64,000 nucleotides of DNA from Micromonospora inyonensis (GTDB lineage: Bacteria; Actinomycetota; Actinomycetes; Mycobacteriales; Micromonosporaceae): assembly GCF_900091415.1 (NCBI RefSeq), contig NZ_FMHU01000001.1:186001-250000 (forward strand), given 5' to 3'. Below, in pieces: positions 1-51,235 of the stretch. The notes below the pieces were generated by a model, which was not told where the DNA came from, searched no databases, and saw nothing but the letters and a program-made list of their open reading frames with translations. A program made the position numbers and the translations under genes. The stretch's first letter is position 1; every line of letters starts with the position of its first letter.

Positions 1-1700
1 GTCAGCGACGGTGTCGCCCAGGTCACGACCCTGAGAGTCCGAGGTGAGCACGATGTCGGCCGCCGTCACGTCCTGCCCGCCATCGAGCAGCGTGGTCAGG
101 TCCTGGGCCAGGTGCCGACTGAGGACGTCGATGACGCTGTTCGCCCGTTCCCATCCGGTGGCCACCGCGCTACCGGGCCACAGGCGGGTGCCGTTGCCGT
201 ATCCGGTGACACCGATAGTGGGCAGGGGAAGGCCGTTGTCGTGCCGCCAAACCGCGAGCTTGCTGGTCTGCCGCGAGACCGATCGCAGCATGTTGAGTTC
301 GACCGGTCCCGGAGTCTTGGACCCTGGATCGAAGCTGATCCGCATCGGATCGGGAAGGGTGGAGCCGCCGACGACGACGGTGGTGAGTGGGTTCGTCAGC
401 GGAACCGGCACGGCGGCGTCGTAGAGCACCGCCCTCTGCTCGTGGAAGGTTTCGCCGGGGCGCTGGCTGAACATCTTGAAATGCCACATGTCGCTCGCCC
501 GCGGCAGATCCATCAACTTCGCCATCGCGGCGCGAGCGGACTGCCACGCCACCGCGTCAGACCCGGCCGCCTCGGTTCCCGACTTCTCGACGATGGCGAG
601 TGCCTCCGCCAGGTCCAATCTGCGTTGCAGCGCGTCGACGGCCTGGGGGTCGCCGCCACCATCCGCCACCGCCCGTGCAAGCGTCGCCTTGACGGTGTCG
701 AACCGACCGCGATACGCGGCCAGTGTTCGTTCGATCGCCTCGTCGACGGCACGTCTGCGCCCACCGAGACGGACGTAGTTCTCCAAGGTGATCTGGGTCT
801 TTCCGTCGGCGCTCTGCGCGACGACCGCTCCGAAGTGGTAGCCGTAGGCGTTGGCGACCGTACCGCCACGGGCGAAGTCCGTCGTCATCGAGGCTTCGCC
901 GTCGGCACCCTGAGACATGATGGCGCTGGTGGCGTAGGCCTCGCCGATCCTGGGCCAGGCATGTTCGTTGATGCCGATCCGCCTCGCGACCTGGCTGAGT
1001 CTGGCGTGCTCGGCGCGGCTCGCCGGATCGTTCCGGAGCGCGGCACCGTACGCGGCACCAGGAAGTGGGGGTTGTGTGACGCCGCCGGTCAACCGCCGGT
1101 CGGCCGCGATCCTGGCCGCCGCCCATCCCGGGTCGACGGCGGCGAGGGGGAGGTCGCCGGCAGCGACGGCAGCCACCCCCTCGGCGAGATGATGCACACC
1201 CAGCAACTCGCTCCCGTTCCCGGCGTCGGTCTCCGCCAGGAAGGTCTGGCCCTCGGCTCGGAACACCACCCCGTCGGGTACGCCACCGAGGACGACGCTC
1301 GCGAAGTCGACGCAGACGTCCGGCGGGGGGTTGTCGAAGTCCGCGCTCACCCTGCGGAGCGTCACCGGTCGACCACCGTGGTCGACCGTGACGGTCACGG
1401 CACTGTCCACCGTCAGCCTGACGTTGGCCCCGGCCCTCGCCAGCCCGCGCCGTGCCGCGTCGATGACCTCATCGGTCGCGTAGAACTCCGTCGCCTCGGT
1501 CACCGGGCGGGCACCGCTGACCGAGGCGATGCCGTTGATGGCGAGCGTGCCGTCGTCGGACAGCCGCAGCGGTGGATGCCTGTGGGTGACCACCTGTTGT
1601 GCCGGAACGTGCGCGGGAAAGTCCGCCTCGGTGGGCTGGCTGTCCCGGCTCGTGCTGACGACGCTCAGCCGCTGGTACGACCGCAACGGAGCCCCGACCT
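1..1700 (-). other. Giant protein: conserved C-terminal-type domain and start of next region (cut)
   Basis: LRLSDDGTLAINGIASVSGA, EFYATDEVIDAARRGLARAG, ELLGVHHLAEGVAAVAAGDL, YGYHFGAVVAQSADGKTQIT, LENYVRLGG, and WHFKMFSQRPGETFHEQRAV. This block recurs, from memory, near the ends of very large actinobacterial proteins. It leads into ELNMLRSVSRQTSKL and VTGYGNGTRL...ATGWERANSVIDVL, a pattern like an OmpA-type fold. The window ends there. Confidence 0.5.
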
Positions 1701-4700
1701 GACCCGCGCTCGGGCCACCGGACGATGCCTCAAGCTGGTACACGCTCGTCGTTCTGGGCCTCGGCCGGGGGTGCGGCAAGGGTGTTCTCGTCAGCCGCGG
1801 CCGTTCGACCTTCGGCGTGCTTCCGGTCGGCGTCGCGTCCGCCGTCGCGGATGACGTGGCGCCGCCACCTCCGAACGTGGCGGCCCGGCCCTCGGCGTCG
1901 ACCGGACTGCCGGGGTCGGCCGGCGGGGGCCACTCCTCCGGTACGGCATCCAGCCTGGGCGAGTAGTCGGATCCGAACGGGCTCGGTTTCGGGTCCTCCG
2001 GAAACGGGCCGGGCTCGGCGTCGGTCGGGTCCAGCGCGGTGTTGCGCCGGGTCGGGGGCACGAGAATGCTGGCGATCGAGCTGGACAGGCTGCCAGCCGC
2101 CGTGCCGGTGTTCGCCCGCGAGAGGCCGGTGGTGAGATCGACGAACGAGGATCCGCTATCCGAGGGCCCCTCGTTGTTCTGCGCGTACTCGAGTACGGCC
2201 AGCATCTGGTCCAGTCGGGCCAACGGGTTGTCGGCGGTCTGGCTCTCCCGCGCCATCGACAATTTTCTGGTGAGGCTCTCCGGGCTCTCGTCGACATGGG
2301 GTTGGTTCGCGTCCGACACCACGAAGATGTATTTGCTGTCCTTCCGTTCGTTCGGCGGGAGCTCGGGAAGCGAGTCCTGCAGCCCGATCCGGTTGTACTC
2401 CTCCCGGCGGTAGGTGAGCTGTTCGTAGAGCTGTTGCTGGCGCATGTCGAACGTCTTCGAGGTCTTGCCCTTCTCGAGCTTCGGAACCCGCTCGTCGTAG
2501 GACCCCTGGGAACGGACGACGTACTCACCCGCCTTCTCGATTGTGTTGTCGGCGACGAACTCCCAGGCGACGACCCGAAGACCCTCGATCTCGCGCCGGT
2601 CGACCTTCTCGAAGAGGATCTTCGCCTCGGTGTTGTGCAGGACGCTCGGTACCATCACCCCCCGGTACACGTGGGCGTCGATCATCCCGTCGGTGACTGC
2701 CACGAGCTGGTGGGAGAACTGTTCCCACATCCGGTTGAAGCCGGGCGGGTAGTTGAAGAAGCTGCCGGTGCCGAGCATGATGTTGTCGAAGATCTGCCCA
2801 CCGGGCGTCGCCTCGAGCATCCGGTTGCCGTTCTGCTCGGTGATCCGTTCGGCGACGGCGGGGCCGATCTTGCCCCAGAGGGCGAGCTTCGACCGGAACT
2901 GCTGGACGGCTTCCCGGAACTGGTCGTCGAAGTCGCTGTCGTGCTGGTGGTTGAACCACCACTTGGCCGGGGCCGAGAAAGCGTGATTGTCCGCCATCAA
3001 CTGCGCGAACGGGGCGACCCGGTCAGAGCCGAACTGCTTGACGACCTCGGCGTCGATCTGGTCGTTGGTCCGGCCCTCAGCCTTCAGCCGGAGCTCGAGC
3101 TTCATCTGCTTCTTGAAGTCCTCGTAGGCGGCTCTCAGTTCGGGGTTGTTCCACAGCTTGTCGTAGCGGGACATGCGGTACTCGATCTTGTGCCAGTCTT
3201 CCTTGGCCTTCCGGAAGTCGATCGTCGAGCCCTCCGCGGGGAGGTCCTCGGACGAGGAACTCTCCGGCGAGGGGATCTGACCGGGGGAATGCGGCGACGC
3301 ATGGGCAGCTTCGTCCATCCCGGCCAGGTCCGCATGCTCCGCAACGGTCACGGTCGCGGCGTCTGCCACCCCCGCCGGCGGGCGCGGGACGCCCACGCCG
3401 TCGGTGGTCGCCACGAACCGCAACCGGCCAGGCTCCACCGGCCCCCGCGCCAGCTCACCCCGCTGACCGTCGAGGAACACCACCTTCCCGTCATAGGTGC
3501 GCATCACGTTCACCGCATGGGAAACCTCGTCGCCCGCACCGGTCGTCACCAGCACACCCCGGGCACCCGGCTCCGCCCCGGCCATCACCTCCACCACCGC
3601 GTCGTAATCGGCCACCTCCACCAACGGCCGACCCGCAAACCGCTGCAACCACACCACCGGCGACGGCACCTCCGGCGGCACCTGCCAACCCACCCCACCC
3701 GCCAACGACATGTCCGTACCGACCGCCGCCAACACACAGTTCGTCGCGAACTGCTCCCCCCGACCCCGGTACGGATTCACCCCACCCAGCCACGGGAACC
3801 AGACCGACACCTCAGCCGGCGACAACTGACTCGGCAGCAACACATCCCCGCGCTCCGACCCACCAGCCACATCCGCCGACGAGTCCGACCCGCCCGCGTC
3901 GGAGTCGTTCCCCCCATCAACCGGCCCATCCGGCACGCCGGGCAACCCCGCCGGCCCGCCAGCATCATCGGGCAGGGACCACAACCGCACCGTGTGGTCG
4001 TCACCGGCGGAGACCACCGCCCGTCGGCCCGACTCGCCCTGCAACGACGTCACCGTCCGCACCCTGCCGGTGTGGCCCTCCAACGTCCGGAGCAGCGCAC
4101 CGCTGTCCGCGTTCCAGACCCGCACCGTTCCGTGCGCATCGGCGGTGGTCAACCGCCGCTCCGACCCCGCCTGCCACGACGTCACGGCCACCGCCCCGCC
4201 GGTGTGGCCCTCCAACGTCAGGAGGGGCGCACCGGTGACCACGTTCCAGACCCGCACCGTCCCGTCCTCACTGGCAGAGGCCAACCGCCGCTCCGACCCC
4301 GCCTGCCACGACGCCAGTGCCACCACAGCGCCGGCGTGGCCCCGCAACGTGAGGAGCGGCGCACCGGTGACCGCGTCCCAGACCCGCACCGTCCCGTCCC
4401 AACTGGCGGAAGCCAACCGCCGGTCCGGCCCCGCCTGCCACGACGCCAGTGCCACCACACCGCCGGTGTGGCCCCGCAACGTCAGGAGCCGCGCACCGCT
4501 GGCCACGTCCCAGACGAACACCGTCCCGTCCGCCCAGTCGGCGGAGGCCAACCGCCGGTCCGCCCCCGCCTGCCACGACGCCACCGCCCCGACACCGCCG
4601 GTGTGGCCCCCCAACGTCAGGAGCCGCGCACCGGTGACCGCGTCCCAGACGAACACCGTCCCGTCGTCGCTGGCGGAGGCCACCCGTGGGCCCGGCTCCC

Positions 4701-7700
4701 CCGGCCACGACGTCACCGCCCACACCGGGCCGATGTGGCCCCGCAACGTCAGGAGCCGCGCACCGGTGACCGCGTCCCAGACGAACACCGCCCCTTGCAT
4801 GTCGGCGGTGGCCAAACGCCGGTCCGGCCCCGCCTGCCACGACTCCACCGCCACCACCCCGTCGGTGTGGCCCCGCAACGTCCGGAGCGGCGCACCGGTG
4901 AGCGCGTCCCAGATCCGTACCGTTCCGTCGTCGCTGGCGGAGGCCACCCGTGGGCCCGGCTCCCCCTGCCACGACGTCACCGCCCACACCGCGCCGGTGT
5001 GACCCTCCAACGTCCGGAGCTCCACACCGTCGACCACGTCCACCGAAGATGGGTCAGGCGCCTGTCCGAGGTGCTGGTCCAGCTCTGCGGCCGCTGTCTC
5101 GACCTGACCGACCCGGTCCCCCAGCCCCCCGAGCTCGGTCGCGGGCAACGATTCCACGTAGGCGTCCACGGTGCGGTGCATCCGCGCCCGGCTGAGACCC
5201 TGCATCTCCTGGAGGTACCGGTCGGACAGCCCCGCCAGGGCGGACCGCGCCGGGCTGTCGTCCTGACCGGGGGCGGTCATCCGCCGCAACTCCCGGTCAG
5301 CGGCGTCCATCCGCCTCGCGTGGCCGTCGGCAAGATCTCGCCACCGCCCGATCAGATCCGCCCGCGCAGTGGCGACCCCGTCGTCGGAAACGGGCACCGC
5401 CTGCTCACCCGACCCGGCTGCACCGTCCCCGGCCTGCCCCGGCACCGCCGCCGCCGGCAACGACGAGACCTGCTCCTCCACCCACTGCCGCGCCAGACCG
5501 AACGCGCTGACCGCGGAGAACAACTCCGCCCGCCACTGCTCGGACACCTCCGGCACCCGCCCCACCGCACGCAGGTGGGGCAGCGGCGGCGACACCCCAA
5601 GGGCCGCCCGCAGCTCGGAAACCTGCTCTGCCGCACCGTCCGCCGACCACAACGACGCCACGTCCTGGCCATGCTCCGTCAGGAACCGGTCGAAGTCCGC
5701 CAATCCCAGATCCCGCACAGCGGACAGATCGACAATCCGCCGACCGTTTTCGCTCTGAACCCCCTCCGGCAGGTTCTCGCGGGGGTTTTCAGGTCTTTCG
5801 GTCACCACCGGCTGGCCCGGTGCCGTATAGAAGACCCAGGCACCCAGATACACCGCCCGCAACACCTCCGAGGCGGCCTCCGGCACCCCCCCGTCCGCCC
5901 GGACCGCCGACACCGGAGCCACCACCGTCTCCCACACCCGGTCGATCTCATCCTCGACCCGTTCCACCACCTCCTCGTCCACCACGTCGTCAGTGGCCAC
6001 CAACGCCACCGCCAGCCGCCGGTTGCGCTCGTCGCCGACCCACCTCTCCAGCCGCAGATCAGGCCGATCCGTCCCCACCGGCAACGCGTCCTCACCCGTC
6101 CACCCGCGCGTGAGCCCGACCAGCCGTTCACCCAACGCCACCAACTGGTCAACCCGCTCACCCATCCGGCGCTGCCCGTCCACAGTCGCCGGACCACCCA
6201 CCACATCGGGAAGCGCCGCCCTCAACTCCCCGGCCCAACCCACCCGACCCGGAGCCGCCGCCCCCACCGCCGCCGCGATCCCCTCCACCTCGGCCAACAC
6301 GCGGGTCCACCCGTCCGCCTCAACCAGATCCCGCGCCGCCCGAAGGCCCCCACCCGCCGGCTCGCCGGTGGCCAACTCCTCCATCCGCACCGGCCACAGG
6401 TCATCCTCGGCCGTATGCGTCAACACCACCGTCGACGTCCACCCACCGAACCCGTGCACCACCACATACACCGGCTCCCGCAACCCCGACGCCGCCGGCG
6501 GCAACGCACCATTCAGGAAGTCGAACAAAGACGGCACGACCGCCTTGGGATCGCCCGGATACGGCCCCGGCACACCCACCACCAACACCCGCGCGCCATC
6601 CGGCACCCACCCCGGACCCACATCCGGCACCCCCGCCGGGCTCGCCTCCGTGATCTCCCCTACCAGCAACTCCGCGCGCCGCAACTGCGTCACCCGCAAA
6701 CCACGCTCCGACGGCACACCCGGAAGGAACACCCAATTCCGGAAATACGAGAACGCCCGCTGCCCCAACCGCGCCCAATCCCGATCAAAAGACAGGAGAT
6801 ACGGCCCATGGTGAACGGGCAATCCCTCCAGCCTCCGACGGCCCCGATATTCAAGGTCAGCGTCCTCATTCACCGGACGCGCCTGGACCTCCCGCAACAA
6901 CGCCGGGAACGTCTCCCGACCCGAGAAATCGACAGCGACCAGACCGTGCGGGAGCACCCCCGCGCCCACGTCCGCCACATGCCGCCCGAGGATCGCCACC
7001 GCCCCCGACTCGCCACGCGCTGCCCGCAACGCCGCGACCTCGACCAACGTCCGTGGCTGCACCACAGGAACACCGGACGGGTAAGCGCTGTACGGCGACA
7101 GCTCGATCACCGCCGCCTCCGGCAGCTCCACGCCCAACTCGCCGTCAATCAACCGCTCCGCCAGAGCCAGCACGTCCTCATGCGCACGGTCCTCGAACGC
7201 CAACACCACCCGCCAGACCGCATCACCCGCAGGCCGATCCTGCCCCGTCCTCGCCGCCCACGCCTCGGCATCCGTCACCGCCTGCTCCCGCGCCACCGCA
7301 GCGAGACGCTCCACATCAATCCCAGTGCTCACGCCCTCCGGATACACCACCACCGACCCACGACCCGACTCTGTCCGGAACCGTTCCCCCGACACCAGCG
7401 GCAACCCCGCCGGCCAGGCAACCCCGTCCGACAGGGACCACAACCGCACCGCCCGCCTCTGGCCGACAGCCAACAGCCACCGGCCCGGCCCCTCCGGCAG
7501 CAACGTCAACGCCTCCACGCCGTCGTGGCCCTCCAACGTCTGGAGCACCACCCCGCGGTCCACGTCCCAGATCCGCACTCTCCCGGCCACGTCGCCAGCA
7601 GCCAACCGCCGCCAGCCCGACTCGTCCTGCCACGACGTCAACACCCGCACCAAGCCGTCGTTGCCCTCGAACGTCTGGAGCACCACGCCGTTGTCCGCGT

Positions 7701-10700
7701 CCCAGACCCGCACTGTTCCGGCCACGTCGGCGGAGACCACCCGCGAGCCCGCCCCCGCCCGCCACGACGTCAACGCCACCACCGCGCCGTCGTGGCCCTC
7801 CAACTCCCGGAGCAGCACACCGTTGTCCGCGTCCCAGATCCGCACCGCCCCGGCCGCGTCGGCGGAGGCCACCCGCGGGCCCGCCCCCGCCGGCCACGAC
7901 GTCAACGCCACCACCGCGCCGGTGTGACCCTCCAACTCCCGGAGCACCACACCGTTGTCCACGTCCCAGACCCGCACCGCCCCGGCCACATCGGCGGAGG
8001 CCACCCGCCGGCCCGCCCCCGCCGGCCACGACGTCAACGCCACCACCGCGCCGGTGTGACCCTCCAACTCCCGGAGCACCACACCGTTGTCCACGTCCCA
8101 GACCCGCACCGCCCCGGCCACATCGGCGGAGGCCACCCGCCGGCCCGCCCCCGCCGGCCACGACGTCAACACCCCGGAGTGGTGGCCCTCCAACCTCCGG
8201 AGCACCACCTCACCGTCCACGTCCCAGATTCGCACCGCCCCGGCCACGTCGACGGAGGCCACCCGCGGGCCCTCCACCGCCTGCCACGACGTCACCGCCA
8301 ACACCTCGCCCAAGTGGCCGATCAGCGGGCCCCGCCTGTCCGGCACGGCGGACAGGTGGGCGACGGGAAGGTCCAGTGCGACAGTCCGGTCATGCCAGGG
8401 TGCGACACCGTCGTTCCCGTGAGGTCCGGACCCGACCGGAGCCACGGTGACGTTGACGGAGAACGCCTCGGACAGCAGGTGTGGTAGCGCCCCCGTGAGG
8501 CGAGGGACCGACGTCCCCCGCGCATCCAGAGCCTGCCGCAACAACGCCCTGTCGTCCAGGGACAGACCGGCCCTTCCCTCGTCGAGGACGTCGGTTCTGT
8601 CGATGAAGTAGCCGAACGAGTCGCGCAGATGGTGGCGGACTCCGTCCGGTGTCTGCTCACCCAGCAGCACCATGACCTCGTGCCCCGCCCTGTCGAGGAA
8701 CTGCGTGAACAACCGATCCCACGCGTCCGAGCGCAGCAGCCCGGCCGGCAGGGACGGCAGCGGCGCAGGAACCGGAACGGACTCCGACGGGGGCCGGGCG
8801 GCCCCGTCCATCCCGGCCAGATCCGCATGCTCCGGGACGGTCACGGTCGCGGCGTCTGCCACCCCCGCCGGCGGGCGCGGGACGCCCACGCCGTCGGTGG
8901 TCGCCACGAACCGCAACCGGCCAGGCTCCACCGGCCCCCGCGCCAGCTCACCCCGCTGACCGTCGAGGAACACCACCTTCCCGTCATAGGTACGCACCAC
9001 GTTCACCGCATGGGAAACCTCGTCGCCCACACCGGTCGTCACCAGCACACCCCGGGCACCCGGCTCCGCCCCGGCCATCACCTCCACCACCGCGTCGTAA
9101 TCGGCCACCTCCACCAACGGCCGACCCGCAAACCGCTGCAACCACACCACCGGCGACGGCACCTCCGGCGGCACCTGCCAACCCGCCCCATCCGCCAACG
9201 ACATGTCCGTACCGACCGCCGCCAACACACAGTTCGTCGCGGAATCCCGCCTCCGCGAGTTCGGACTGTCCGGATCGTCAGCACGACCCGGGTTCACACT
9301 GCCCAGCCACGGGAACCAGACCGACACCTCAGCCGGCGACAACTGACTCGGCAGCAGCACGCCACCACGTCCCGCCTCACCAGCCACATCCGGTGGGGGT
9401 GGCGGCTGGTGTGGCGCGGTCGCCGGGCCGGGCAGCGACGACCCATCCTGGACGCGCGGACGCTTCGGGGCCCGCCGAGCTCCCGACTCGGCTCGCTCTT
9501 TGCGCCGGTCGAGCATCGTCTGTCGGTCTTCGAGCTGCTTTACGAGAGCGTCGTAATCCGCCGCATCCCTGACGAAGAGCCGGAAGACGTGTTCGGGTTC
9601 GGACACCGGCGCGTTCGGTTCAGGGACCAACGGCGCCCTGACCACGACGACAACCTCTTTGACGCTCTCGACAACGTCGTCCTTGCCGACCGGCCGGAGC
9701 CGCTCCCCCACCTCCAGGGTGATCGGCGTCCCAGGGGCGAGATTCACCTGCCGCCCATCTGACGTCCTGGCCCAGGTTCCGCCGCCGAGAGAAAAACCCA
9801 GAGGACCAGGCAATCGACTGTGCGAGCCAATTGTGTCAGCGAAGGATCTCGCCCGGGAAATGCTCCACCAATACCCACGTTCCCACAGCGCCGTTTTGCG
9901 CAGCAACTCAATGTCGTCGATGGTGGGGGCAGGATTGACCAGTTGCAGATACAGGTCCCGCCCAACCCCGCTCTTCTCAGCCGGCATCACCACGACCGCG
10001 ATGGGTCGACCATCCGGGCCGTACCCGAGTCGAAGAATGGCCTCCTTCATGTTCCTCGGGATGACAAATGGACTTCCGTCGGCCACTTTGACGACCGGGA
10101 TCCGGACTCTCTGGAGTTTGTCGCCCTCCGAGCCCTGGCCGAAGGAGCGGGTCAATACACCCGTCTTGGGGTCCAAGCCCGCCGCGATGTGAAAGACGGA
10201 GCTGATCGCCGGCTCGTCGAGTTGCCACACATGGCCGTGCGCCCTGCCCCTCAGTTCAGCCAGATCGCTGTCAGAAAATCTGCGCTCGATCTCGCGGTAG
10301 GCAAACTTCTCGACGCCGTCGGCCAGGTACGGGATCTTGACAATGCCGACACCCTCCCCGTTGGCCGACCCGAAGTCGACAGCGACCATGTCGCCCGGTA
10401 GGACCACGTGGTCGACACGAGTGAGTTGCACGTCCTTGCCGCCCAGCCGGAAGCGCAATTCCGCGTACGCGCCACTGTTGGCCTTGACGTGGGCAGCGAT
10501 GCGGAGGGTGAACGGGTCTTTGAGTTCCCATCGGTAGTCACCTGCCCAGGTGGCGTCGTCGCTGAGGCCGGTGAGGTATCGGTGGTATGCGTCAAGTTCT
10601 TCGGCTTGGCGGCGAGGAGAGAAGAGGCGCTTACCGACGGCCGCGAGGTCGCGGTCAAGGTTGTATCGCAGGAGGGACCGGTGAGGCTCCGGAGAATTCG

Positions 10701-13700
10701 CTTCCGCCGTGTCGATTCTGGCTTTCAGTAGACCGAGCGCCCCGCTGAAAAGGCTGTCCCATCGCGACCGTGCGTGGTCGGGCCACTCCCGCTGGTAGCC
10801 GCTGGCGATGCGGGCGAGGATGTCGGCATCGGCCGGGTCACGAGGTTTGAGGACGATGTAACCACCCTTCCACCACACGACGGGGCGTGGGATGGCACCG
10901 TCATCGGGCGGCGGGCCGATGTCGTCGTACGGGTCGCCGAACGGATGGTAGAGCCGCATCGGCTGGTCCAATCCCATGGCCAGCAGATGGAGAGCGGCAT
11001 GGGTGACTTCGTAACCCACGGATCGGGGGTTTGCCATCTTGTCGATCCAGATCCGGTGCAGGGCGTCTCGTTGCTGCTCGGACATGTTCTCCGGATCCGG
11101 ATACGGAAGAAGCTCCCTGATCCTCGGCGATCCGCCCGGGGCGAGTTCCTTGGCCAGTTGGCGGGCCAGCCATCCGCTCAATCCAGCCGGGGTGGTGATG
11201 CCTTTCTTCCCCAAGTCTTCCCGGTAGGTGTTCAACACCGACTCGTTGAAGACGTAGTTCGGCCTCCAGTCAAGGTTTGCGGGATCGAATTCGAACACCT
11301 CGCGCGCCCACCTGCCGAACGCCGCCTCGGCAGCGGCTCCAGCGCGCTTCAAGTAGCTGGTGGCTTCCTCCACTTCCTTTTCCCAGTCCGACATCTGCCC
11401 GCCCGATGGCTGCCCCTCCGGGTCGAGCACGGGAGTCGACATGTCGGCTCCGGCGAACGGGTCCGCCGTCCACCCCAGGTCCGCGAACTCCGGGCCAAGA
11501 TCGAACGGGTCGTAGTATTCCGCTGAATCGGACGGCTGCCCGCCCGCGTCAGCGTCGGCGTCGGTCGGGGGGTTCCATTCCATCGCCGCCGGCCGGCCCG
11601 GCAGCGAACCGGAAACCCGCTCCGACGACCCCGAGCCCGACCCGGACGACCCAGTCGGCCGGGGCGCGACCGTGGAAGCCACATACGAAGCAGCCGTATC
11701 CCGGATCTGCTCAAGCTCCCAGGCGGTGAACCCCGGATCGTTCAGATGATCATCACCCACACGCCTGGAACCCCTGAGCAGATCACCCGGCGAAGCATGA
11801 TGCGGCACCCCAGCGAAATGCTTCAACTCATGCCCATAAGCACGAGACGGAAGACCCGCAAGCCAATGCAACTGAGTGATCCGACCCGCCGAACCATCCT
11901 CACTCACATAGACGTTGTCACTGTCCCTCAGGTCACTGCCGTACCGGCTGAGCCGAACCTCCGTCTCCGCGGCCGGATCGAACACCACCGCCACCGCCCG
12001 CGACCCACCCCCCGACCCCAACCCCGCGTTGGTCCGCACCACCCACTGCTCGACCGCACCCAACGTGGCCAGAATGGCTTCCTCCGCCACGTTCGCGTCA
12101 GGCACCAACCGAAGACGGAACACCACCGTCCCCGACCCACCATGCACCCAATGGTCGACGTGAACCCGAACCCCCGCGTCCTCCCCCGCCGTCTCCACCC
12201 GGAACGGACGCCCCTCCCCCGGCGTCTCCACAAACCGCAACGGCTCCCAACCCCGCCACGTGAACCGATCCGACTCCACCCGCGTCATCTCGCCCCACGA
12301 AGGCAAACCCTCCGCACTGCGATACGACACACGCCAACCACCATCAACCCGCACCACCGACGGCTCCACCCCAGCCGCCCACCCCGACGACGACCCAACC
12401 CCGCCATCGGCCGAAGCCGCACCAGCCCACTCGAACGCCGCCGGCCCCCCAGGCAACGACGACCCCCCGGTACGCCGACGCTTCGCGTATGGCTGGTATA
12501 TCGATTCGCCTCGCTCTCTGCGCTTGTCGAGCATCGCCTGCCGCGTGCGGAGCCGGGCGATCAAAGTATCGAAATCGGCGTCCGTCTTGCCCGTGGTGAC
12601 AAGCCGGTAGGCGTGTGTGGGTATCTCCGACACGTCGACCACCGAGTTGGCGCGCAGGTAGGCCTCCTTGGCCGCGTCGTCCAACGGCTTCAACGGCGCC
12701 TTGACCACAAAGACATTGCTGGCAAGTTCCGGTCCGATCACCCGCTTTCCCACCCGCAGGGTGATCGCCGCCCCCGCAGACAGATCCACCTCCAGCCCAT
12801 CGACTGTCGCGCCCGCACCGCTGGCCGAAAGATCGATGGGTTTGGGCAACCGGGCACGGTCCGTCAATGCGTCGTCGAAAGAGTTTCCATCGACAAGCAC
12901 CCATCGATCCCGCGACTCCCAGAAGGATTCCCTCTTGCGCAGACGCTCGATGTCGCCCACGGTGGGGGCGGGATCGGTCAACCTCAGATACAGGGCCTGC
13001 CCCCCGTTCCGCTCGGCCGGAATTTCCACGACCGCGAGGGGTTGACTATCCAAGTCATACCCGACTTCGAGAACCACATCCTTCATGTCATCGGGGACGA
13101 CAAACCGAGTCCCGTCGGCAAATGTGGTCCGTGAGATAAGGGCTCTTTGGCTGGCCTTGCCTACATCACCCTCACCGAACCGCACGCCCAAGACGCCGCT
13201 TCTCAATGATGTCGACATCTGGAAGGAGTCAACGAACGACGGCTTGACGGATTCCAACACTCGGTCGGAGGCCCTATTGCTCGGACCGGATTCTCCATCC
13301 CTCAGACCGGAGACTCTATTCCTCAGAGCGGATGCTCTGTTGCCCAGTTCGGCCAGCTCGTTGTCATCGAACTTACGGTCGAGTTCGCGGTAGATGAACC
13401 TCTCGGTGCCGTCGGCCTCGGTGTACGGGATTCTGGCGATACCGACGCCCTCCTCGCCGACCTTGCCGAAGTCGATAGAGATGATATCGCCGGAGGCGAC
13501 ATGTTGGGTGGTAAGCAGGAGAGAAACAACTTTGCCGCCCACCGAGGCGTTCAAATGCGTGTGGTTGCTGTCGCCCCTGTAATCAGCGGCGGTCAGGCGG
13601 AGGGTGAAGGGGGATTCGAGTTGTGGGCTCTCGTCTTGCCAGCCGCTGTCTTGCCGGAGGCTGTTGAGGTATCGGTGGTATTCTACGAGTTCTCGGGCCT

Positions 13701-37700: not shown

Positions 37701-40700
37701 GCACCACCCACTGCTCAACCGCACCCAACGTGCCCCGAATCGATCCCACAGTCACGTTCGCGTCAGGCTCCAACCGAAGACGGAACACCACCGTCCCCGA
37801 CTCACCACGCTGCACCCAATGATCGACGAAGACCCGGACCCCCGCGTCCTCCCCCGCCGTCTCCACCCGGGACGGACGCTCGCCCCCCGGCGTCGGCACG
37901 AACTCCAGCGGCGCCGGACCCTCCCACGTGAGCCGATCCGAATGCACCCGCGTCATCTCGCCCCACGAAGGCAAACCCTCCACACTGCGATACGACACAC
38001 GCCAACCACCATCAACCCACTCCACCGACGGCTCCACCCCAGCCGCCCACCCCGACGACGACCCGGCCTCCACGCCCACCCCAGCCGAGAACGAACCCTC
38101 CCCCGGCCCCCAACCGAAGGCCGCCGACCCCCCAGGCAACCCGCGACCGGTACGCCGACGCTTCTCGAGTGGGCCCGCCGGCCATTCCGGCACGGCTGGG
38201 CGTTTGCCGCTGTCGGTGGTCTCCCACTGCGTCTTGAACTCGTCGAACCACTCGTTCGACAGGTTCGTGTCGATGAGCCGGTAGGCGTATCCGGACCGGT
38301 CGGCCAACGGCGCCTTGACGGCGGCGACGATGCTCGTGACGACGTTCGACTCCTCCATCCGGAGGAATCGGCCGACCCGCAGGGCGACTTCCGTCCCAGG
38401 AGAGAGATCCACCTCCTGCCCGTCCAGCGTCCTGCCCGAGTTGTCATCGCCGAGCGTGAGCGGCAGCGGGTATGGCGTGCGCCTGTCCTCCTGCATGACG
38501 AGATCGATGGATACTTCGTCGAGGAGCGCCGCTGGCTCGGCCGATTCCCACAGCGCCATCGAACGCAGCCGCTCGATGTCGTAGGCGGTGGGGGCCGGCG
38601 AGGACAGCTCCAGGTACAGGGGCGCTCCGATGCCGTTCCTTCCGACCGGTGCTTCCAGGACCGCCAGGGGTCGGCTATCCATGCCGTACCCGAGCCGGAA
38701 ACGCCCCTCCCTCAGTTCGGCGGCGATGACGGGCGGAAGTCCGTCGGCCATCTCGACCGGTGGGAGCGTGACTCGCTGGCCGCCGAAGGTGATGTCAAAT
38801 GTTCCGCTTTCGCTCACCGGCGCCGTGATGTGGTAAGAATTGCCGAACGTCCACCGGTCGACGGTCTCCCACACTGAGCCGGCTGCCGTGCTCCACAGTT
38901 CGGCCAGCTCGCTGTCGGTGAACCTGCGGCCGATCTCTTTGTAGGCGAACCTCTCGGTGCCGTCGGGCGCGGTGTACGGGATTCTGGCGATACCGACACC
39001 CTCGCCGTCAACCTTTCCGAAATCGACAGCGACCCTGTCGCCCAGGACGGCGACTCGATCGGCATATCCGAGGATCGTGTCGTTCCCGTCAAGCCGGAGC
39101 CGAAGAGTTGGACGACCCTCGGTGTCCTCGACGAGGACGGGGATGGTGAACGGGTCTTGCAGGTTCCAACGGTTCTCGTCCTCCCAGGTGCTCTCCTCGC
39201 GGAGGGCGTCGCGGTATCGGAGGTGTTCTTCGAGCACGTCGGCGAGCCCCTGGGGGGAGCTGGGGCGTTGGCTGATAGCCGCGACGTTCCGTTGGAAGGT
39301 GTCCCGCAGGAGCGGCCAGTGGCCGATCGCCGTGTTCTGTTCCGCCGTGTCGACTTCGGTTTTCAGCACCTCGAGCGCCTCGTCGAACACCACGTCCAGT
39401 CGGCGCAGTTCGGTGAGGGCTGCGGGTGACGGGAAACCCTCGGCGATGCGGGCATCGTGTGGATCACGAGGCTGGGCGAGATAGTAGGCGCCGTCGAACC
39501 AGACGACTGGTTGCGGGACCTCACCGTCATCGGGCGGTGGACCGATGACGTACGGGGGGGCACCGTACGGATGGTGGATCGCCATCGGCAGACCCAAACC
39601 CCAGGCCACGATGTGGGGAACCACGTGCACGACGTCGGGATAGCCCGGCTGGCGGTGTAGGAGTTTGTTGAGCAGGTGCTGGTGCAGCGTCTCCCGTCGC
39701 TGCTCGGACATGTCCTCCGGATAGGGGAGAAGTGCTCTGAACATCGACTGCTCACCCCGGCGGAGGTCGGCGTCCAGGTGGCGGGCCACCAGCACGCCCA
39801 GTCCAGCCACGGTGGTGACGCCCGACTGCGCCAACCGTTCCCGATGGGTTTTCAACACCGTCCCGTAGAAGGCGTCGAGCGGCTCCGCGCCGCTGTCCGC
39901 GCGACCGATGCGGAAAACCGCATACGCCCAACGCTTGAATGCCGACCCTTTTTGGGTTCTCATGTTCGTCAACTGGCTGAGGGCCGAGTCCACTTTCCGC
40001 CGCCGGGCCTCCACTGCCCGCGCATTCAGAGTATTCAGGTCTGCCGGAGTAAAGTCCGTACGATAGTCCCGGTAGATAAATTCCTCGGTTCCGTCGGGCG
40101 CCCGGTAGGGAATTCTGGCAACAGCGAAGACCTCTTCACCGTCCATCCCGAAATCGAGGGAGATCCGGTCGCCCGGCATGGCGAAAGTATTCAGATTGCG
40201 GACACGCAGGCGCTTGTTTTCCACTTGGACAAACGCTGCTGCGTGCCCTTCACCTGGGTTGAAGGCGTGGAGGTGGAGGGTGACCCGACCTCCCTGAGGC
40301 CTTGGGTCCTCTCCTCTCCAGCCGGTCGCGCTGGCCTGGGTAATGCTGTTGAGGTACCGGCGGTATTCCGTCAGGGTGTCGGCCTGCTGCCGGGGCGATT
40401 CGGGGCGTCGCCGCTCGGCGAGATCTACCCCGCCGACCCCTTGACGGATGACCGCGAGCTTACGCTCTAGTACTTCCCGCTGGACGGGCCAGTGCCTGCC
40501 GGCCGTTCGGAGTTTCTCTTCCACCGCGTCGATTCGCGCCAGCAGCATACCGAGCGCCTGGTCGAACAGTCCATCCAGTCGCCGCTTCTCATCTTCCGGT
40601 ATTGGCGTCCGCTCGGGACCTATGGCGATTCTGGCGGCGAGGTCAGCATCGTCTGGATCAGCAGGCCGGACGAGGTAGTAGGCGCCCTTGTAGAAGACAA

Positions 40701-43700
40701 CTGGCAGCTTGGTGGAATCGGACCCCGGGCCAATGTCGTACGGGGCGTCGAACGGTTGGTAGATGCGCAACGACGGGGGTATGACCCGGGCCAGGACATG
40801 GACAACCACATGCGCGACGTCGTGATCGCCGCCGGCGCCGTACGCGATTCTGCCGACCCACTGCCGGTGCAGGTCCTCTCGTCGCTGCTCGGACACGCCC
40901 TCCGGGTACGGAAGCAAACGCCGAAACTCCGACGCGTCACCCAGACGGAGATCGGCGGCCAGGCTTGTGGCCGTCCATCCGCGCAGTCCCTGACTGTTGA
41001 TCCCCAAGTCCGCAAACTGCTCACTGAAGGTGCTGAAAACCGATTCGTAGAAGTTTTCCGGTCTCGCTCGCGTGAGATCGAGTCCGAACGCCTCGCCCGT
41101 CCACCGCACGAAGTTCTGCTCGTCGAGGTTGCCCACGGCTGACAACTGCTCGACCGCCGTGCCAACCATCGCCGGCAGCGAGCCCAACGTTACAAGGTTC
41201 GCCTCCGCCAAGCCCCGCGCCGCATCGTCGGCCCTCTCCGCCAGCATCGCCGCAACCGACCCCGGCTTTGTCAGCGCCTCGGTGATGTCGCGTTTCAGGT
41301 CGTCGAAGCGCTCGTTGTCCACACCCGTGTCAAGGAGCCGGTAGACGTGTCCGGACCCGTCGACCAACGGCGCACGGACCACGACAGGAATGGTGCCGGC
41401 GACATCCGCCCCGACCCGCCCCTGCCACTGCCCCACCGACAGGGTGACCGATGTCCCCGGAGAGAGATCCACCTCCGCCTCGGCCAACGTCCTGGCCGAG
41501 TCAGGACCGCCGACCGCGATGGGCAGCGGACCGGGCGTCCATTTCCCCTGCTCCAGTAGGACTTCGAAAGACATCCGCTCGGAGAGAGCCCACCGATCCT
41601 CCGGTTCCCACAGCGCGTCCTTGCGCAGGCGCTTGATGTCGTCGACGACGAGGGCGGGCTTGCCCAATTCCAGGTAGAGGGGCAGTCCTGTGACGTTCTT
41701 CTCGGCCGGCGCTACCACGACCGCAGTGGGTCGACCGTCCTCGGCGTACCCGAGGATGAGACGGCCGTTCAGCTCGGCGTAGAGGACAGGCGGAAGCCCG
41801 CCGACCACCGGGACGTGTGGAACAAAGATCTGTCTGTCGTGCCTCGGGGCCGCCGGGCCGCCGTAGCTACCGCCAAAAATCCCGCGTCCCAATACAGGCA
41901 ATGTCACCTGATAGTGGTCGTTCGACAGCGGCCGGTGGTGAAGGTCCCACACGCGGCCGGCTGCCTTCACCCTCAACTCGAGCAGTTCACCGTCGCTGAA
42001 TTTGCGTCCGAGTTCTCGGTAGACGATCCTGTCGGTGCCGTCGGTCGCGTCGGTATACCGGAATTCCGCAAAAGCGATGCCTTCTTCGCCTCTTGCCCCG
42101 AAATGAACAGGAAGCCGGTCGCCCCGCTCGGCCACTCGGCCGATACCCATAACTACGGTTCTGCCGTCCAGCAGCACGCTCAGCTCCAGCTGCTTATCAT
42201 CCTTTGGTCGCTTGGCACCGATGTCGAGCGTGAATTGGTGACGGAAGTCCGTCGTTTCTTCCTTCCATCGAGGATCCGCACGGAGGTGCTCGATGTATCG
42301 GCGGTATGCGAGAAGTTCGAGTTCCTGGGCTTTCCTGTTGTGCGGATAGTCGGGGTGTTCACGACGGATGACCGCGAGCTCACGCTGAAGCGTTTCCCGC
42401 AGGACGGGCCAGTGCTTGGAGTTGGTCGGATGGGGGTTGTTCTCCGCCTCCGCGATCCTCGCCCGCAGCAGATCGCGTGCATCGGCGAACAGTCGATCCA
42501 GTCGCCGCTGCTCGTCTTCGGATACCTCTGTCCGAGGGAAACCCTCAGCGATGCGGCGAGCGCGTTCGACATCTGCCGGGTCAGGTAGCTGGCCGAGGTA
42601 GTAAGCGCCCTTGTGGAACACGACCGGATACCGGATGTCGACGGTGGCCGGGTCCGCCTCGGGGGTGTCGACCCCAGCACGGGGCTCCGGGCCGATGTCA
42701 TGCGGAGCACCGAACAAATGGTGGATCCGCATCGACAGGGACAACCGCGAAGCGATGACGTACGGAACCACATGCGCAACGTCGTCATGGCCGGACTTGT
42801 GGCTCGCAATCTTGTTGAGCCATTGCCGGTGCAGGTCCTCCCGTCGCTGCTCGGACATGACCTCCGGATACGGAAGCAACCCGCTGAACTCCGACTCGCC
42901 ACCCCGGCGAAGATCAGCGGCCAACTCGCGGGCCACCCACGCGCGCAGCCCAGAAACGCTGCGATCGACCCCCGCAGCCTTCAACTTCTCGTCGAAGCGA
43001 AGCAACACCGCGTCGTAGAAGTCGTTCGGCCTCGGAAGGCGAGCCGAGAGACTGACCCCGAGCACGTCGCGCGTCCACTGCACGAACTCCGCCGCGACAT
43101 CGCGGACTCCACCCGCCTCACCACGGGTTCCCACGGCCGACAACTGCGCGATCGCCGAAGCCACGGTCAGCGTCCAGCCCTTCGGAACACCGCCGGACCT
43201 ACCTACCGCCGGCGCCTGAGTCCACCTCGAAACCTCCCGCACTTCCGGCGGGGCCGCGCTGATCTCGCTTGTCAGGTCGTAAAAGCGCTCGTTGTCCACA
43301 CCGGTGTCGAAGAGCCGGTAGACGTGTCCGGTCCCGTCGACCAATGGCGCGCGGACCACGACAGGAATGGTGCCGGCGACACCCGTTTCGTCCTCCCCCT
43401 GCCCCGGCCACTTCCCCACGGACACGGTGACCGATGTCCCCGGCGAGAGGTCCACCTCCGCCCCGTCCAAGGTCCTGGCCCGACCACTAACCCTGACCTC
43501 GATGGACAATGGACCCGACGCGGCACGAATCGACAATACCCCAGGGCGAGTCGCTCCCTGCTGCAACACGCCATCGAAGGATATCTGCTCGGAAAGAGCC
43601 CACCGATCATTCGGTTCCCACAGTGCTTTCTTGCGCAGCCGCTCGACGTCGGATCGAGTGGTGGCAGGTTTGGACAATTCCAGGTACAGGGGCTGACCTT

Positions 43701-46700
43701 TGACGTTCTTCCCGGCCGGTGCTTCCACGATGGCAGTGGGTCGGCCGCCGTCCCGGGCATACCCGAGCAGAAGCCGGGTCTCGTTCAGCTCCCTGGTGAG
43801 AACGGGCGGGAGTCCGCCGACCACCGGGGCCGTCGGGATCCTCGGCATCGGGACATCCTGGCCGGGGGCAGATTGGCCCAGCCCCACGCCCAATCCCCCG
43901 TTGTGTTGCACGGACGTCGTCGTGTAGAAATCGCGCACCAGTGGCGGACGGTCAACGTCCCACACGTTGCCGACCGCCTTGCTCCTCAGCCTGGCCAGCT
44001 CCGAGTCGTTCAGATTGCGGCCGATCTCTCGGCGAGAGTGGACTTCGGTGCCGTCAGCCGAGGTGTACGAGACTTCAACAAAGCCGGTGCCCACTCCGCC
44101 GACCTTGCCGAAATGGACAGCGACCAAATCGCCCGGGACAGCCATCCGATCGACACCAACGCCGGCCAATTTGCTGTTGCCCAACCATACGCGCAAATAC
44201 CGGTAACCCGCGCGCCCTGCCTCGACGGAGACGGGCAGGTGGATGGTGAACTGGTTTTCCAGGTTCTGCCGGTTCCCGGACTCCCATCTGCCGGCAGTGA
44301 TGAGTCTCCGAAGGTGCTGGACGTGGTCAGCGAGTTCCCGGGCCTTTTTGTGGTGGGGAGAGTCGGGATGTTGACGGATGACCGCAAGTTGGCGGTGAAA
44401 GGTCTCCCGCAGGACGGGCCACCGATCGGAGTTGGTCGGATGGGGGTTGTTCTCCGCCTCCGCGATCTCCGCCCGCAGCAGATCGCGTGCATCGGCGAAC
44501 AGTCGATCGAGATGCCGCTGCTCGTCTTCGGATACCTCTGTCCGAGGGAAACCCTCAGCGATGCGGCGAGCGCGTTCGACATCTGCCGGGTCAGGTAGCT
44601 GGCCGAGGTAGTAAACGCCCTTGTGGAACACGACCGGATACCGGATGTCGCCGGTGGCCGGGTCCGCCTCGGGGGTGTCGACCCCAGCACGGGGCTCCGG
44701 GCCGATGTCATGCGGAGCACCGAACAAATGGTGGATCCGCATCGACAGGGACAACCGCGAAGCGATGACGTGCGGAACCACATGCGCAACGTCGAAGTCG
44801 CCGGTCTGGTCGCGCACGATCTTGTTGAGCCATTGCCGGTGCAGGTCCTCCCGTCGCTGCTCGGACATGACCTCCGGATACGGAAGCAACCCGCTGAACT
44901 CCGACTCGCCACCCCGGCGAAGATCAGCGGCCAACTCGCGGGCCACCCACGCGCGCAGCCCAGAAACGCTGCGATCGACCCCCGCAGCCTTCAACTTCTC
45001 GTCGAAGCGAAGCAACACCGCGTCGTAGAAGTCGTTCGGCCTCGGAAGGTCAGCCGAGAGATCGACCCCGAGCACGTCGCGCGTCCACTGCACGAACTCC
45101 GCCGCGACATCGCGGACTCCACCCGCCTCACCACGGGTTCCCACGGCCGACAACTGCGCGATCGCCGAAGCCACGGTCCGCTTCCAGTCCTGCGAGACAG
45201 CCCCGGCCCCACCGACCGCCGGTGCCCCACTCGACCCCGGGTCCGGCCCGATTCGTGCGGGGTTCTCCGGCAGGGTCCCGAAATCGCGCGCCAAATCCTG
45301 CTGGTCCCACACTGCCAGCAGCTGCACGGCTCGGCGCGGGTCGGCATCCGCCAGCCAGGGGGTGCCAGCCACCGATGCCTGCATAGGAATCTCCGCCCAC
45401 GGACTCCCGGAGTCGACCGGGCCGGTACCCGCCGGCGGCTCCCCGTCCTCGGACGTCGGTGAATCGACCCCTGCCGGCACGTCCGACTCGACCTGTTCGG
45501 GTTCAGCCAGCCGATCGACGTCGGACACCGGTGCCGGCGAATCGACCAACGCCAGCGGATCCCAATAGTCGACCTGGCCGGACTCCGCCCGCCAATCGAC
45601 GCCAGACAACCCGTCCAGCGGCTCCCAGGGGTTGTTCAGGTCGGCATCCGCCAGCCAACCGGCGCGGGACTGCGATGCCAGCGGATCCGAGGGGTCGACC
45701 GGCTCGGCGCCCCTCGGCGTTTCCCCGTCCATGTCGGACGCCGGTGATTCCCCTCCTGACAACAGGTCCGACTCGACCGGATCGACAGCCCCCGGCGGCG
45801 CCCAGCCCTCCGGGAGCACCGCCGGCGGTGTGCTCAGATTCAGCCCGCTCAGATCCGGGTGCGCGTCTTGGAATCCCAGATCAACAAACTCCGGGCCGCT
45901 GCCAGGCGCGTCGTCCATCTCCGCCAGCGGATCCGAGGGGTCGACCGGCTCGGCGCCCCTCGGCGTTTCCCCGTCCATGTCGGACGCCGGTGATTCCCCT
46001 CCTGACAACAGGTCCGACTCGACCGGATCGACAGCCCCCGGCGGCGCCCAGCCCTCCGGGAGCACCGCCGGCGGTGTGCTCAGATTCAGCCCGCTCAGAT
46101 CCGGGTGCGCGTCTTGGAATCCCAGATCAACAAACTCCGGGCCGCTGCCAGGCGCGTCGTCCATCTCCGCCAGCGGATCCGAGGGGTCGACCGGCTCGGC
46201 GCCCCTCGGCGTTTCCCCGTCCATGTCGGACGCCGGTGATTCCCCTCCTGACAACAGGTCCGACTCGACCGGATCGACAGCCCCCGGCGGCGCCCAGCCC
46301 TCCGGGAGCACCGCCGGCGGTGTGCTCAGATTCAGCCCGCTCAGATCCGGGTCCACGTCTTGGAAGCCCAGACCAACAAACGCCGGGCCGGTGCCAGGCG
46401 CATCGTCCATCTCCGCCGGGTCAAACGGCTGCCCGGGGGAGGCGGCGTCCGCCTGCATCGCCTGGGACGGGCCGCGTGGCGGGGTGGTGGAGGCGAGCAG
46501 GATGGCGTTGGGGTCGATGCTGGTCGTGGTGGTCGGCTGCGGGTGCGCGGTGGTGGGGTCGGGAAGTAGGTCGGCGATCGTGGTGGGTCGCCCGGTGCTG
46601 TCGAACGCGGCGAGCCGGGTGCTCGAGGCGAACAGGTGCCGGAGCCAGGGGTCGCGTAGCGGGTCGGTCGGTTCGGGTCGGTCCTCGGCGCCGGGCACCA

Positions 46701-49700
46701 GGCCGTCGCGCACCTTGATCGTCGGTGGTCCGGATGGTTGTGGCTGGCTGTGGAGGGCGAAGACGTGTTGTGGCTCGTTGGGTGGTGCGGCCCTGACCAC
46801 GACCATCGAGCCCGGTGCCGCCCGCAGCGCGGCGAGCACGTCCTCCGGGGTGACTCCGTCGGGGTGGGCGACGCGCTCGGGTGTCGCGTCGAGGATGTCC
46901 AGGAGTTGCGGCCAGGTCGTGGTGGGTGCGAGTCGGCCGTCGGGTCCCATGTTCCGGTCGTCGAGGACCGCCCGGTTGCCGGGCCGTCCGTAGGCGGTGG
47001 TGTAGGCGTCGAGGGTGGCCTGCACGCACCACCACCACGGGTCGCGGCTGTTGTCGGGGCCCACCGGGGTCTGCTCGATCCAGTCGGCGACCCGCCGCGC
47101 GGACTCGGCCGCCTCGACGGACTGCCCCATTGCCGCGACGGGCTGCCCGGTTGCCGCGACCGCCGGCTCCGGTGCCGTGTTGGCCGGCTCGCGGCGTCCG
47201 CCCGGGTCGCCACCGACCGGCTCGTCCAGCGAGGACACGTTGCTGAACGAATCCCTGCCGCCGACATCGCGCCCGACCGGGCCGCCGCTGATCAACCCGT
47301 CCCGCGAGGAGGCGTCCCTGAACGGGTCCGTGTCCCTGAATTCGCGCTTGGCCGCCTCACCATTGTCCGACTCGTCGAGGGACGAGACGCCACTGACCGA
47401 ATCCCCGTCGATGACGTCGCGTTTGACCGGGTCGCGGCTGGTCGGCTCGTCCCACGAGGAGAGATCGCTGACCGTCATGATCTCGTCGCGGTCGGTCCGA
47501 CCGTCCTGCGAGGAGAGGTCACTGACCGTCATGATATCGTCGCGGTTGGCCTGATCGTCCTGCGAGGAGAGGTCACTGACCGTCATGGTGTCGTTGAAGC
47601 TGCTGTCGCGGCTGAAGATGCCGTCGCTGGGGACGGAGAGTTCAGTGACCGACGTCTGGTCGCTGGCGTCGTGGTGGTCCGGCGTGCCGTCGGTGCGGGG
47701 GACGACACCACCCGGCACCGTACCGCGGACGCCGGCCGCATCCGGCGTGCCCGGAGTGCCGGGCGCACCGGGCGTGCTGGGCGTGGCCGGCACGCTGGGC
47801 GTGGCCGGCACGCCGGGCGTGCTGGGCGTGCTGGGCGTGGCCGGCGCGCTGGGCATACCCGCCGTGCCGGGGGTGGCGGTGGCCTGGGCGAGTACCTGGT
47901 GGTATCCGTTGACCCAGTCCTGTCGGAAGGATCCGGCGAGGGTGTCGTCGCTGGCCGGTTCGACGCCGTGCTTCCTGGCCAGGGCGGTGAACTGGGTTTC
48001 CGCCAGGCTGGTCGCTGCTGCGGTGTGCTGCTCCGGGGTCACCGGCACCGTCGGTACGTCGGTGCGCCCGTCTGCCCGGGTGTCCGTGCCGGCCGGGGTG
48101 GCCTCCGGTGCGGTGGTGTCGGGGATGACCGCGGCCGTGAAGCGGGCGGGTAGGTCGGTGACCACCTGTCGGACCACGTCCGCCACGGCGTTGACCTGCG
48201 CGGCGTCCGGACCGGCCACCGCAGCCGACGGCACGGTGGACGGCATGGTGAGTGGTGCGGTGGGTAGCGGGTTGGTGCCGAGGATCGCGTCGAGGCTCCG
48301 GTCCACGTGACGCGCGACCTCCGCGCGCACGGCGTCCGACGGCACCGCCGCCGCCCCGGCGGCCCCCGGCACGCCCGCGCCAACCGGCACACCAGCGGTC
48401 CCCGGCGTACCGACGACCGCCGGCACGGCAGCACCGCCCGGCACGCCACCCGCCCCCGGCACCTGAACGGCCCCGGGCAGGACCAGTCCGCCTTGCAGGG
48501 TGACGGGCGTCGGTGTGCCGGTGGTGAGGTACTGGTCGATGTGGTGCTGGGCGGCCAGATGCACGGCCGAGCGCAACGCCTGCCGGTCGAACTCCGCCGG
48601 CAACGCGGCGACGACCTGCTCCGGCCGTACCACCGCCGGGATCTGCCCGCCCGCCGGGATCTGCCCCGCGAGGGCTTCGGTGATGCGGGCGACGGCCTGG
48701 TCCCGGACCCCGAACAGGTACTGCTCGGTGAGCGCGGTGGCGGGTAGGCCGATCCGGGACAGGAAAGCGGGAACGGTCGGGTCGTTCTGCCGGGCGTCGG
48801 CCCACTCGGTGAAGACCTGCTCGACCGGCACGGGAAGCGCGGCCAGGAACTGCCGCGCCTGCCCCGTCCCGGCCAGCAGCCCACCGTACTGGTCCACCAG
48901 TTCCCGCTGGAACCGCTGCCACTGCTCCACCACCGGCGCACCGGCGGCCACGACCCACTCCGGCACCGGTACCACCGGCACCGTCGGCGCAGCCGGCACG
49001 GGCACGTCCGGCACCGACCACGACGGCACCGGCAGGTCCGGCACCGACCACGACGGCACCGGCAGGTCCGGCACCGACCACGACGGCACGGACAGGTCCG
49101 GCGGCGACCACGACGGCACCGGCGGCACCGGCTCAGGCGCCACTGGCGCCGGTGCCGACAGCGACGGTGCCGACACCAGCGGGACAGGCACCGGCGCCGG
49201 CCCGCCGGAGCCCGCACCGGCCGGATCGCCGACCTCCGGCTGATACGCCGACGGGTCCGCAGTGACCGGGATGGGCGGCGGCACCGGCGCCACCGGCCTA
49301 CCGTCGGCGGTGAACCCGGTGCCACCGGGCATGTTCCACCGGGGCCGGGTCGGGTTGAACCCCAAACCGACCGCGCCACGACGCGCACCCATCCCGGCCG
49401 CCGTCCCGGCCAACTCACCCGACCCCGACAACGCCCCGGAAAGCGCGTCCGGCCCGACACTGCCCGTGTCGTAGTACCCGTCGACCATCAAGCCGGCGGC
49501 GGCACCGCCGACCACCTCCATGCCGACTTCCGACACCGGCACCATCATCAGACTGGTCAACAGGTCACGCGTGGAACCCGACACCCCGAGGTGCGCCAGA
49601 CCACCACCCACGGCACCGGCGAACCGGCCCAACGCCGGCCCGGCCGCCGTGGTGACACCCGCCACCGCCAACCCGTACAACGCCTGCTTGCCGACCTGCG

Positions 49701-51147: not shown

Positions 51148-51235
51148 CCCGACTACCTCCTCTTCTATCCCACGGGTGATCTGCGGCACCGGGTTTACAT
51201 CGGTGCAATAGTGTTGAACGGCCGGGGCAACAGTG

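Follow-up and report, generated by a model that had tools for sequence, protein, structure and literature searches.

How long a single bacterial reading frame can stay open, and what a cell might use its product for, are the questions raised by a 64,000-nucleotide stretch of the Micromonospora inyonensis genome (G000; 6.92 Mb, four contigs). This stretch, positions C1:186001-250000 of the 3.29 Mb contig C1, is called the window here. It contains no N, and its minus strand has no stop across window positions 1-50322 (16,774 codons), of which 16,763 codons follow an ATG at 50289. The giant gene so delimited comes immediately after an operon (EccC-EccD-EccB-WXG100) for an ESX (type VII) secretion system; the sequence-only reading of the window had already raised the question of export by such a system. 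We conclude that it is one real, selected reading frame, and consider it fairly probable that the product is one very long modular multi-effector polypeptide exported by ESX.

That earlier reading had proposed an uninterrupted frame of at least 16,763 codons and suggested extending the contig leftward to find its stop. The frame turned out to be longer still, ending at a TAG (contig C1:178960-178962) 7,038 bp past the left window edge, with 2,346 codons at its 3' end, plus the TAG, outside the window (contig C1:178960-186000). It counts 19,120 codons from stop to stop and 19,109 aa from the ATG, a protein of 2.06 MDa with a pI of 5.2. An antisense or chance frame is ruled out by the open minus frame together with the stops in all five other frames of the gene (376, 290, 61, 253, and 401), about 2.1% of codons being expected as stops at its base composition. 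The GC content of third codon positions (GC3) is high along the whole gene (0.74–0.96 per 500-codon block). Tox-PL and WD40 domains, said before to lie in this same frame, are supported there by Pfam, and the "zinc motifs" are six HExxH motifs. Within residues 1-9,900 no Pfam or NCBIfam family rises above cut-off. Internal duplications had also been described as multiples of three, which holds for all spacings among the 20 of 30 repeat families listed, but is weak evidence on its own since these are in-frame protein repeats; among them are three tandem 82-residue repeats (246 bp), with copies 100% and 97% identical to the first.

Three other Micromonospora assemblies have orthologues in synteny, each an open frame behind the same ESX, YbaB-type, and 113-aa genes. 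They measure 14,813 aa (G210) and 11,790 aa (G006), both on single contigs, and at least 9,304 aa up to the contig end (G269), with collinear blocks 71–90% identical to the giant. Of 57,330 columns, 28,026, 31,258, and 23,257 were aligned with G210, G006, and G269, and these show 1,398, 3,373, and 2,411 substitutions, respectively. When these substitutions were placed at random, they created on average 30, 39, and 35 in-frame stops (lowest of 50 runs 20, 30, and 23), whereas none is observed in any of the three orthologues. The frame is kept at both ends in 19 of 20 aligned nucleotide blocks. Judging from alignment block ends, the first array is ~3,120 residues (three modules) shorter in both G210 and G006, the second lacks one further module (~1,020 residues) in G210, and G006 is devoid of about residues 11,890-15,648 of the giant. 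In our reading, the gene lengthens and shortens via in-frame gain and loss of modules.

Following an N-terminal head, the chain appears to consist of a proline-rich stretch, a module array, two core blocks, WD40 propellers, and three domains of the papain-fold Tox-PL1 type. Each module presumably contains an OTU-fold domain that is dead, along with beta-rich parts, and six of the modules would also have a metzincin-motif domain. None of the nine copies of the predicted OTU-fold domain contains a cysteine. The fold was modelled on copy 7 only (predicted local distance difference test, pLDDT, of the block 64–93, residues 1-180), the other eight copies being assigned by sequence similarity. The domain has no Pfam match, and a Foldseek search with the module gave no match at E <= 0.001 (best OTU row 3phw, E 0.19, probability 0.99); the call of an OTU fold comes from VIA-align, which re-examines the list produced by Foldseek itself. 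The last OTU strand shows no His before its Tyr, reading G-A/V/G-Y where the relatives G313b and p06 have NHF and NHY; this was judged by eye, two aligned relatives ending before that strand. With the catalytic Cys and His of OTU peptidases both missing, we do not class the domain as one of them, and its copies are in all likelihood dead. The six metzincin-motif copies all have HExxHxxGxxH. The string HELKHFAGVPH is unchanged in all 13 copies collected with a query omitting the motif itself (six in the giant, two in each of three orthologues, and one in the relative p21), copies whose flanks are 63–96% identical. Predicted structure over this region reaches a pLDDT of about 25–60, and no credible sequence relative was found in the PDB (best E 0.51).

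All three Tox-PL1 domains carry the NC, H, and DxQ signature as given in PMC3482391. Like Tox-PL1/Gln_amidase (PF15644) in this signature, they differ in being internal to a giant chain; domains 1 and 3 pass the Pfam cut-off, and domain 2 rests on the signature, with no PF15644 match among the 25 of 32 families listed. The giant has five cysteines against 143 expected from neighbouring genes (109 in 14,538 aa, a background without the giant and without shadow-like frames, i.e., GC1 above 0.88 or GC2 above 0.62). Three sit at Tox-PL1 positions, one in a papain-like WWWC, and one outside any assigned domain, and the identical five are found in the orthologue G210. Other giants are also cysteine-poor (G006, 4 in 11,790 residues; G011, 2 in 8,837; G020, 5 in 10,046; G313b, 6 in 8,362), many cysteines of G011, G020, and G313b being without an assigned domain.

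Core blocks A and B have no Pfam family, and the second of them, also without a family match, forms the C-terminal tip of the giant; compared with each other by hhalign, they score a probability of 39% (E 3e-4). Among 396 genomes drawn evenly from the phylum, core B (501 residues) occurs in at least two, this one and G613, which belongs to another actinomycete order and holds related frames of 12,384 and 19,630 codons. The larger of these lies on G613:C17 and has two cysteines. In the translated G613 giants there are 2 cysteines in 19,629 residues (G613a) and 1 in 12,373 (G613b), and each of the two in G613a is followed, ~50 residues on, by a weak PF15644 match that stays below cut-off (E 0.0018 and 0.039). 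EccC, EccD, and EccB are encoded ~7 kb behind the shorter G613 giant, and a YbaB-type stretch is found within 1 kb upstream of both, one of them weak (E 9e-4). A YbaB-type gene likewise precedes seven of the seven other giants tested (G006, G011, G020, G016, G210, G269, and G313b) and neither of two head-bearing G239 loci.

The head (residues 1-320) has no Pfam match, but a profile of 22 heads matches, by sequence rather than by fold comparison, EsxA-type/WXG100 sequences over residues 26-113 (E 4e-4 to 2e-3). A search with it found 23 places in the genome, all read to their stops, giving frames of 515 to 19,109 codons that total 106,377 codons, or 4.6% of the genome. One of them (p16, 515 codons) and perhaps p15 look broken, and the head of p22 is just 55% identical. 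Behind the conserved head the tails fall into several classes and are variable downstream; p10 shares with the giant a Tox-PL1/WD40 block of 2,087 columns at 82%. On contigs C1 and C2, 18 of the 22 dispersed frames are similar to the giant locus at nucleotide level from about -202 to +1532 or beyond (in one of them from -209, in two pieces), a stretch that includes the end of the 113-aa gene, so that these 18 look like copies of the 5' end of the ESX-linked gene joined to other cargo. Upstream of p11 lies a fragment of 42 residues from the operon's 1,109-aa gene, hits under 40 residues having been dropped from the neighbourhood scan. Of 354 genomes in the family, at least 22 contain a match to the head at E <= 1e-3 (a lower bound, as is the core-B count, since at most 6 candidates per genome were scored for the head and 3 for core B), at identities of 85% or more in six (this one, G006, G210, G239, G241, and G269), 54–57% in three, and 25–31% in thirteen, some of the latter with short frames. 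G239, a second Micromonospora genome with the head family (noted on its contig C1), has at least six head-bearing frames. A protein-collection search with the head (proteins up to 17,500 aa) returned one of 3,249 candidates, a protein of 6,395 aa, the same length as p10.

How such a chain might work can be pictured as follows. The WXG100-like head would mark the giant for export by the EccBCD machine of its own operon, with the YbaB-type and 113-aa proteins as its likely partners, and it may enter the EccC route with YbaB-type help analogous to that of EspL (PMC6319747). The chain would cross unfolded or in part, cysteine-poor, after which its Tox-PL1 and peptidase domains would act on targets outside the cell, presumably in an antagonistic role. 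The metzincin peptidases might in addition cleave the chain itself into fragments, a self-processing that we rate below the export of a multi-effector polypeptide as such.

Several observations weigh against this picture. A 2-MDa substrate is, to our knowledge, far beyond any ESX substrate known. No mycosin or EccE appears among the ten proteins scanned in the operon listing, and none of the 22 other head-bearing frames has EccB, EccC, EccD, WXG100, or YbaB-type genes nearby (stretches reaching 2–4 kb upstream). No immunity-like gene was seen directly downstream, the next frame being a convergent Hsp70-like one (by eye), so we do not class the giant as a classical polymorphic toxin. Gap lengths are unclean, with 24 of 33, 42 of 90, and 34 of 82 divisible by three against G210, G006, and G269 (low-identity repeat blocks included). 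Finally, the ratio of nonsynonymous to synonymous substitution rates (dN/dS) by NG86, a method biased at this GC3, is high: 0.60–0.90, 0.40–0.67, and 0.59–0.87 against the same three, with 13 of 66, 2 of 51, and 8 of 40 windows of 250 codons at 1 or above. The values for EccB, EccC, and EccD are 0.15–0.44, and those for small genes of the operon range widely, between 0.1 and 2.7. Even with that bias of the method, constraint on the giant is looser than on the EccB/C/D machine: the gene is under selection, either loose or diversifying.

Among other explanations, one keeps the export and makes the product a secreted polyprotein weapon, which we regard as doubtful though not far-fetched. The ESX-exported chain would be cut by its own six metzincins into effectors of ~1,000 residues, the dead OTU folds would serve as binding spacers, and cysteines would have been purged, except at papain-type active sites, for passage or folding outside the cell. 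The 22 dispersed genes would then be a store of alternative cargo, recombining with the single ESX-linked locus or exported by it in trans. It is unlikely that the giant is instead a structural or adhesive surface protein whose peptidase and papain folds are relics. The loss of Cys from nine of nine OTU-fold copies, the WD40 arrays, the core blocks without a Pfam family, and the missing downstream immunity gene would agree with it, but the metzincin motif has been retained in all 13 copies while its flanks drifted, the Tox-PL1 signature is present in three of three domains, and G210 has the same five cysteines.

The length itself could be questioned, if assembly had inflated or collapsed the number of module copies in this strain. 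The longest exact repeat in the gene is 593 nt, so the exact module number here is not proved and rests on the assembly, and the first array is indeed about three modules shorter in G210 and G006, the second one module shorter in G210. Still, we find this distinctly unlikely given a 3.29 Mb contig, no N in the 110 kb of DNA read around the gene, module copies that in many cases differ by 20–60%, and the 14,813 aa obtained independently from the single contig of G210; the orthologues, with longest exact repeats of 142–287 nt, are likewise open. Quite improbable, in our view, is a real long frame from which internal starts or promoters yield several shorter proteins. Each module is a self-contained unit, and shorter paralogues have such modules too, but in-frame internal starts with a Shine-Dalgarno-like motif are depleted (13, where synonymous shuffles have 22.5 ± 4.0 and reach 13 or more in 199 of 200 cases), although such depletion may be general in genes; moreover, frame and order are kept across species, no stops occur at module borders, and just one head was detected in the frame (tiles of residues 1-1250 gave no self-match). 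We give equally little credence to an ESX-independent protein that merely neighbours the operon, for although the 22 same-head relatives, and two of two G239 loci, have no ESX genes beside them in the stretches examined, the operon order recurs in three further genomes, the YbaB-type neighbour does so at seven of seven other giants, a giant from another order has EccC/B/D ~7 kb behind it, and the head is similar to EsxA.

A multi-effector polypeptide exported by ESX would have relatives among known systems. CpnT and other WXG100-headed ESX toxins have, as the giant does, a WXG100-like head before the effector part and are ESX linked, the giant being ~20-fold longer than CpnT and of many domains. 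A "lonely Cys" family of NCBIfam yielded neither a match nor a paper. EspL is a YbaB-type protein of ESX-1 that stabilises EspE, EspF, and EspH (PMC6319747), and the giant locus similarly encodes a YbaB-type protein with a predicted ESX substrate. The class of protein is known from actinobacterial giants of more than 10,000 aa that each unite multiple peptidase and toxin domains (Zhang et al. 2012, PMC3482391), which as described there (the comparison is by description, not sequence) include metallopeptidase and OTU types, as here, and also caspase, ART, MCF1-SHE, and lethal-factor-like domains; ours has instead dead OTU-fold arrays, metzincin motifs, WD40, and Tox-PL1. The abstracts and passages of the literature searched contained no dead OTU arrays beside intact metzincin motifs. 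The place among the very largest bacterial proteins that the sequence-only reading assigned to the giant holds at 19,109 aa, but in company, with the related 19,630-codon frame, the toxins above, and the Omnitrophota, for which bacterial proteins exceeding eukaryotic giants are reported in PMC11573180. New here are the nine Cys-less OTU folds, the six intact metzincin motifs, the three Tox-PL1 domains, the near-total loss of cysteine, and the 22 dispersed head-sharing genes.

Features of the giant gene and the adjoining ESX operon (window positions)
Feature	Position	Strand	Basis
Giant gene, residues 1-16,763 of 19,109	1..50289	-	open frame
Head domain, residues 1-320	49330..50289	-	common to 23 frames of genome
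Papain-like candidate, first cysteine (residue 1088, WWWC)	46510..47172	-	by eye, no family match
Three tandem 82-residue repeats	45677..46414	-	repeat search
OTU-fold copy 1, no Cys	44563..45192	-	similarity to copy 7
OTU-fold copy 2, no Cys	42553..43182	-	similarity to copy 7
OTU-fold copy 3, no Cys	40648..41247	-	similarity to copy 7
OTU-fold copy 4, no Cys	39463..39999	-	similarity to copy 7
Metzincin-motif copy 1, HELKHFAGVPH at residue 4261	37330..38190	-	motif + sequence search
OTU-fold copy 5, no Cys	36523..37059	-	similarity to copy 7
Metzincin-motif copy 2, residue 5399	33916..34776	-	motif + sequence search
OTU-fold copy 6, no Cys	33121..33657	-	similarity to copy 7
Metzincin-motif copy 3, residue 6410	30883..31743	-	motif + sequence search
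OTU-fold copy 7, no Cys	30094..30630	-	predicted structure
Metzincin-motif copy 4, residue 7413	27874..28734	-	motif + sequence search
Core block A, residues 8298-10067	20089..25398	-	~30% identical in giants of another order
Metzincin-motif copy 5, residue 11815	14668..15528	-	motif + sequence search
OTU-fold copy 8, no Cys	13888..14427	-	similarity to copy 7
Metzincin-motif copy 6, residue 12820	11653..12513	-	motif + sequence search
OTU-fold copy 9, no Cys	10768..11346	-	similarity to copy 7
Tox-PL1/Gln_amidase domain 1 (NC at 13686, H, DGQ)	8890..9372	-	PF15644 33.0 bits, cut-off 24.1
WD40 array 1	7390..8325	-	Pfam
WD40 array 2	3895..5064	-	Pfam
Tox-PL1 domain 2 (NC at 15517, H, DGQ)	3310..3873	-	signature
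Tox-PL1 domain 3, residue 16832	left of window	-	PF15644 33.6 bits
Core block B, residues 17448-19096	left of window	-	sequence comparison with other-order giants
113-aa gene directly upstream, conserved with giant	50387..50728	-	sequence comparison
YbaB/EbfC-family gene	50725..51189	-	PF02575 43.6 bits; also beside other giants
1,109-aa Asn-Pro-Phe/Gly-rich operon protein	51236..54565	-	open frame, conserved in orthologous operons
123-aa operon gene	54568..54939	-	open frame
Two WXG100-type genes (55142-55429, above cut-off; 55499-55816, just below)	55142..55816	-	PF06013 46.5 and 27.1 bits, cut-off 27.3
EccB	55935..57266	-	PF05108 250.7 bits
EccD	57268..58647	-	PF19053 157.2 bits
Third WXG100-like gene	59311..59745	-	PF06013 27.0 bits, just below cut-off 27.3
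EccC (to window position 65822)	61851..64000	-	FtsK_SpoIIIE 300.6 bits

Within the operon, the 1,109-aa protein has many GNPFAN repeats and no Pfam family, a transposase-like relic (by eye) lies between EccD and a WXG100 gene (58644-59282, minus strand), and the minus-strand frame 59764-61800 resembles, by its motif, a DXD-type glycosyltransferase. Past the other end of the giant, the convergent Hsp70-like gene occupies contig C1:176678-178894 and is kept in G210. The genome has three EccB genes, two of them at further loci (C1:2729739 and C2:2545002).

The locus provides an intact, orthologue-supported case of an extremely long bacterial protein, whose great length is genuine and differs between related genomes in units of entire blocks, and with it the size limit of ESX export becomes testable in a soil genus. 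The series of 19,109, 14,813, and 11,790 aa, with its known module differences, amounts to a natural experiment in the growth of such proteins. The near-total loss of cysteine, repeated in the giant of another order, points to a physical rule for chains of this kind.
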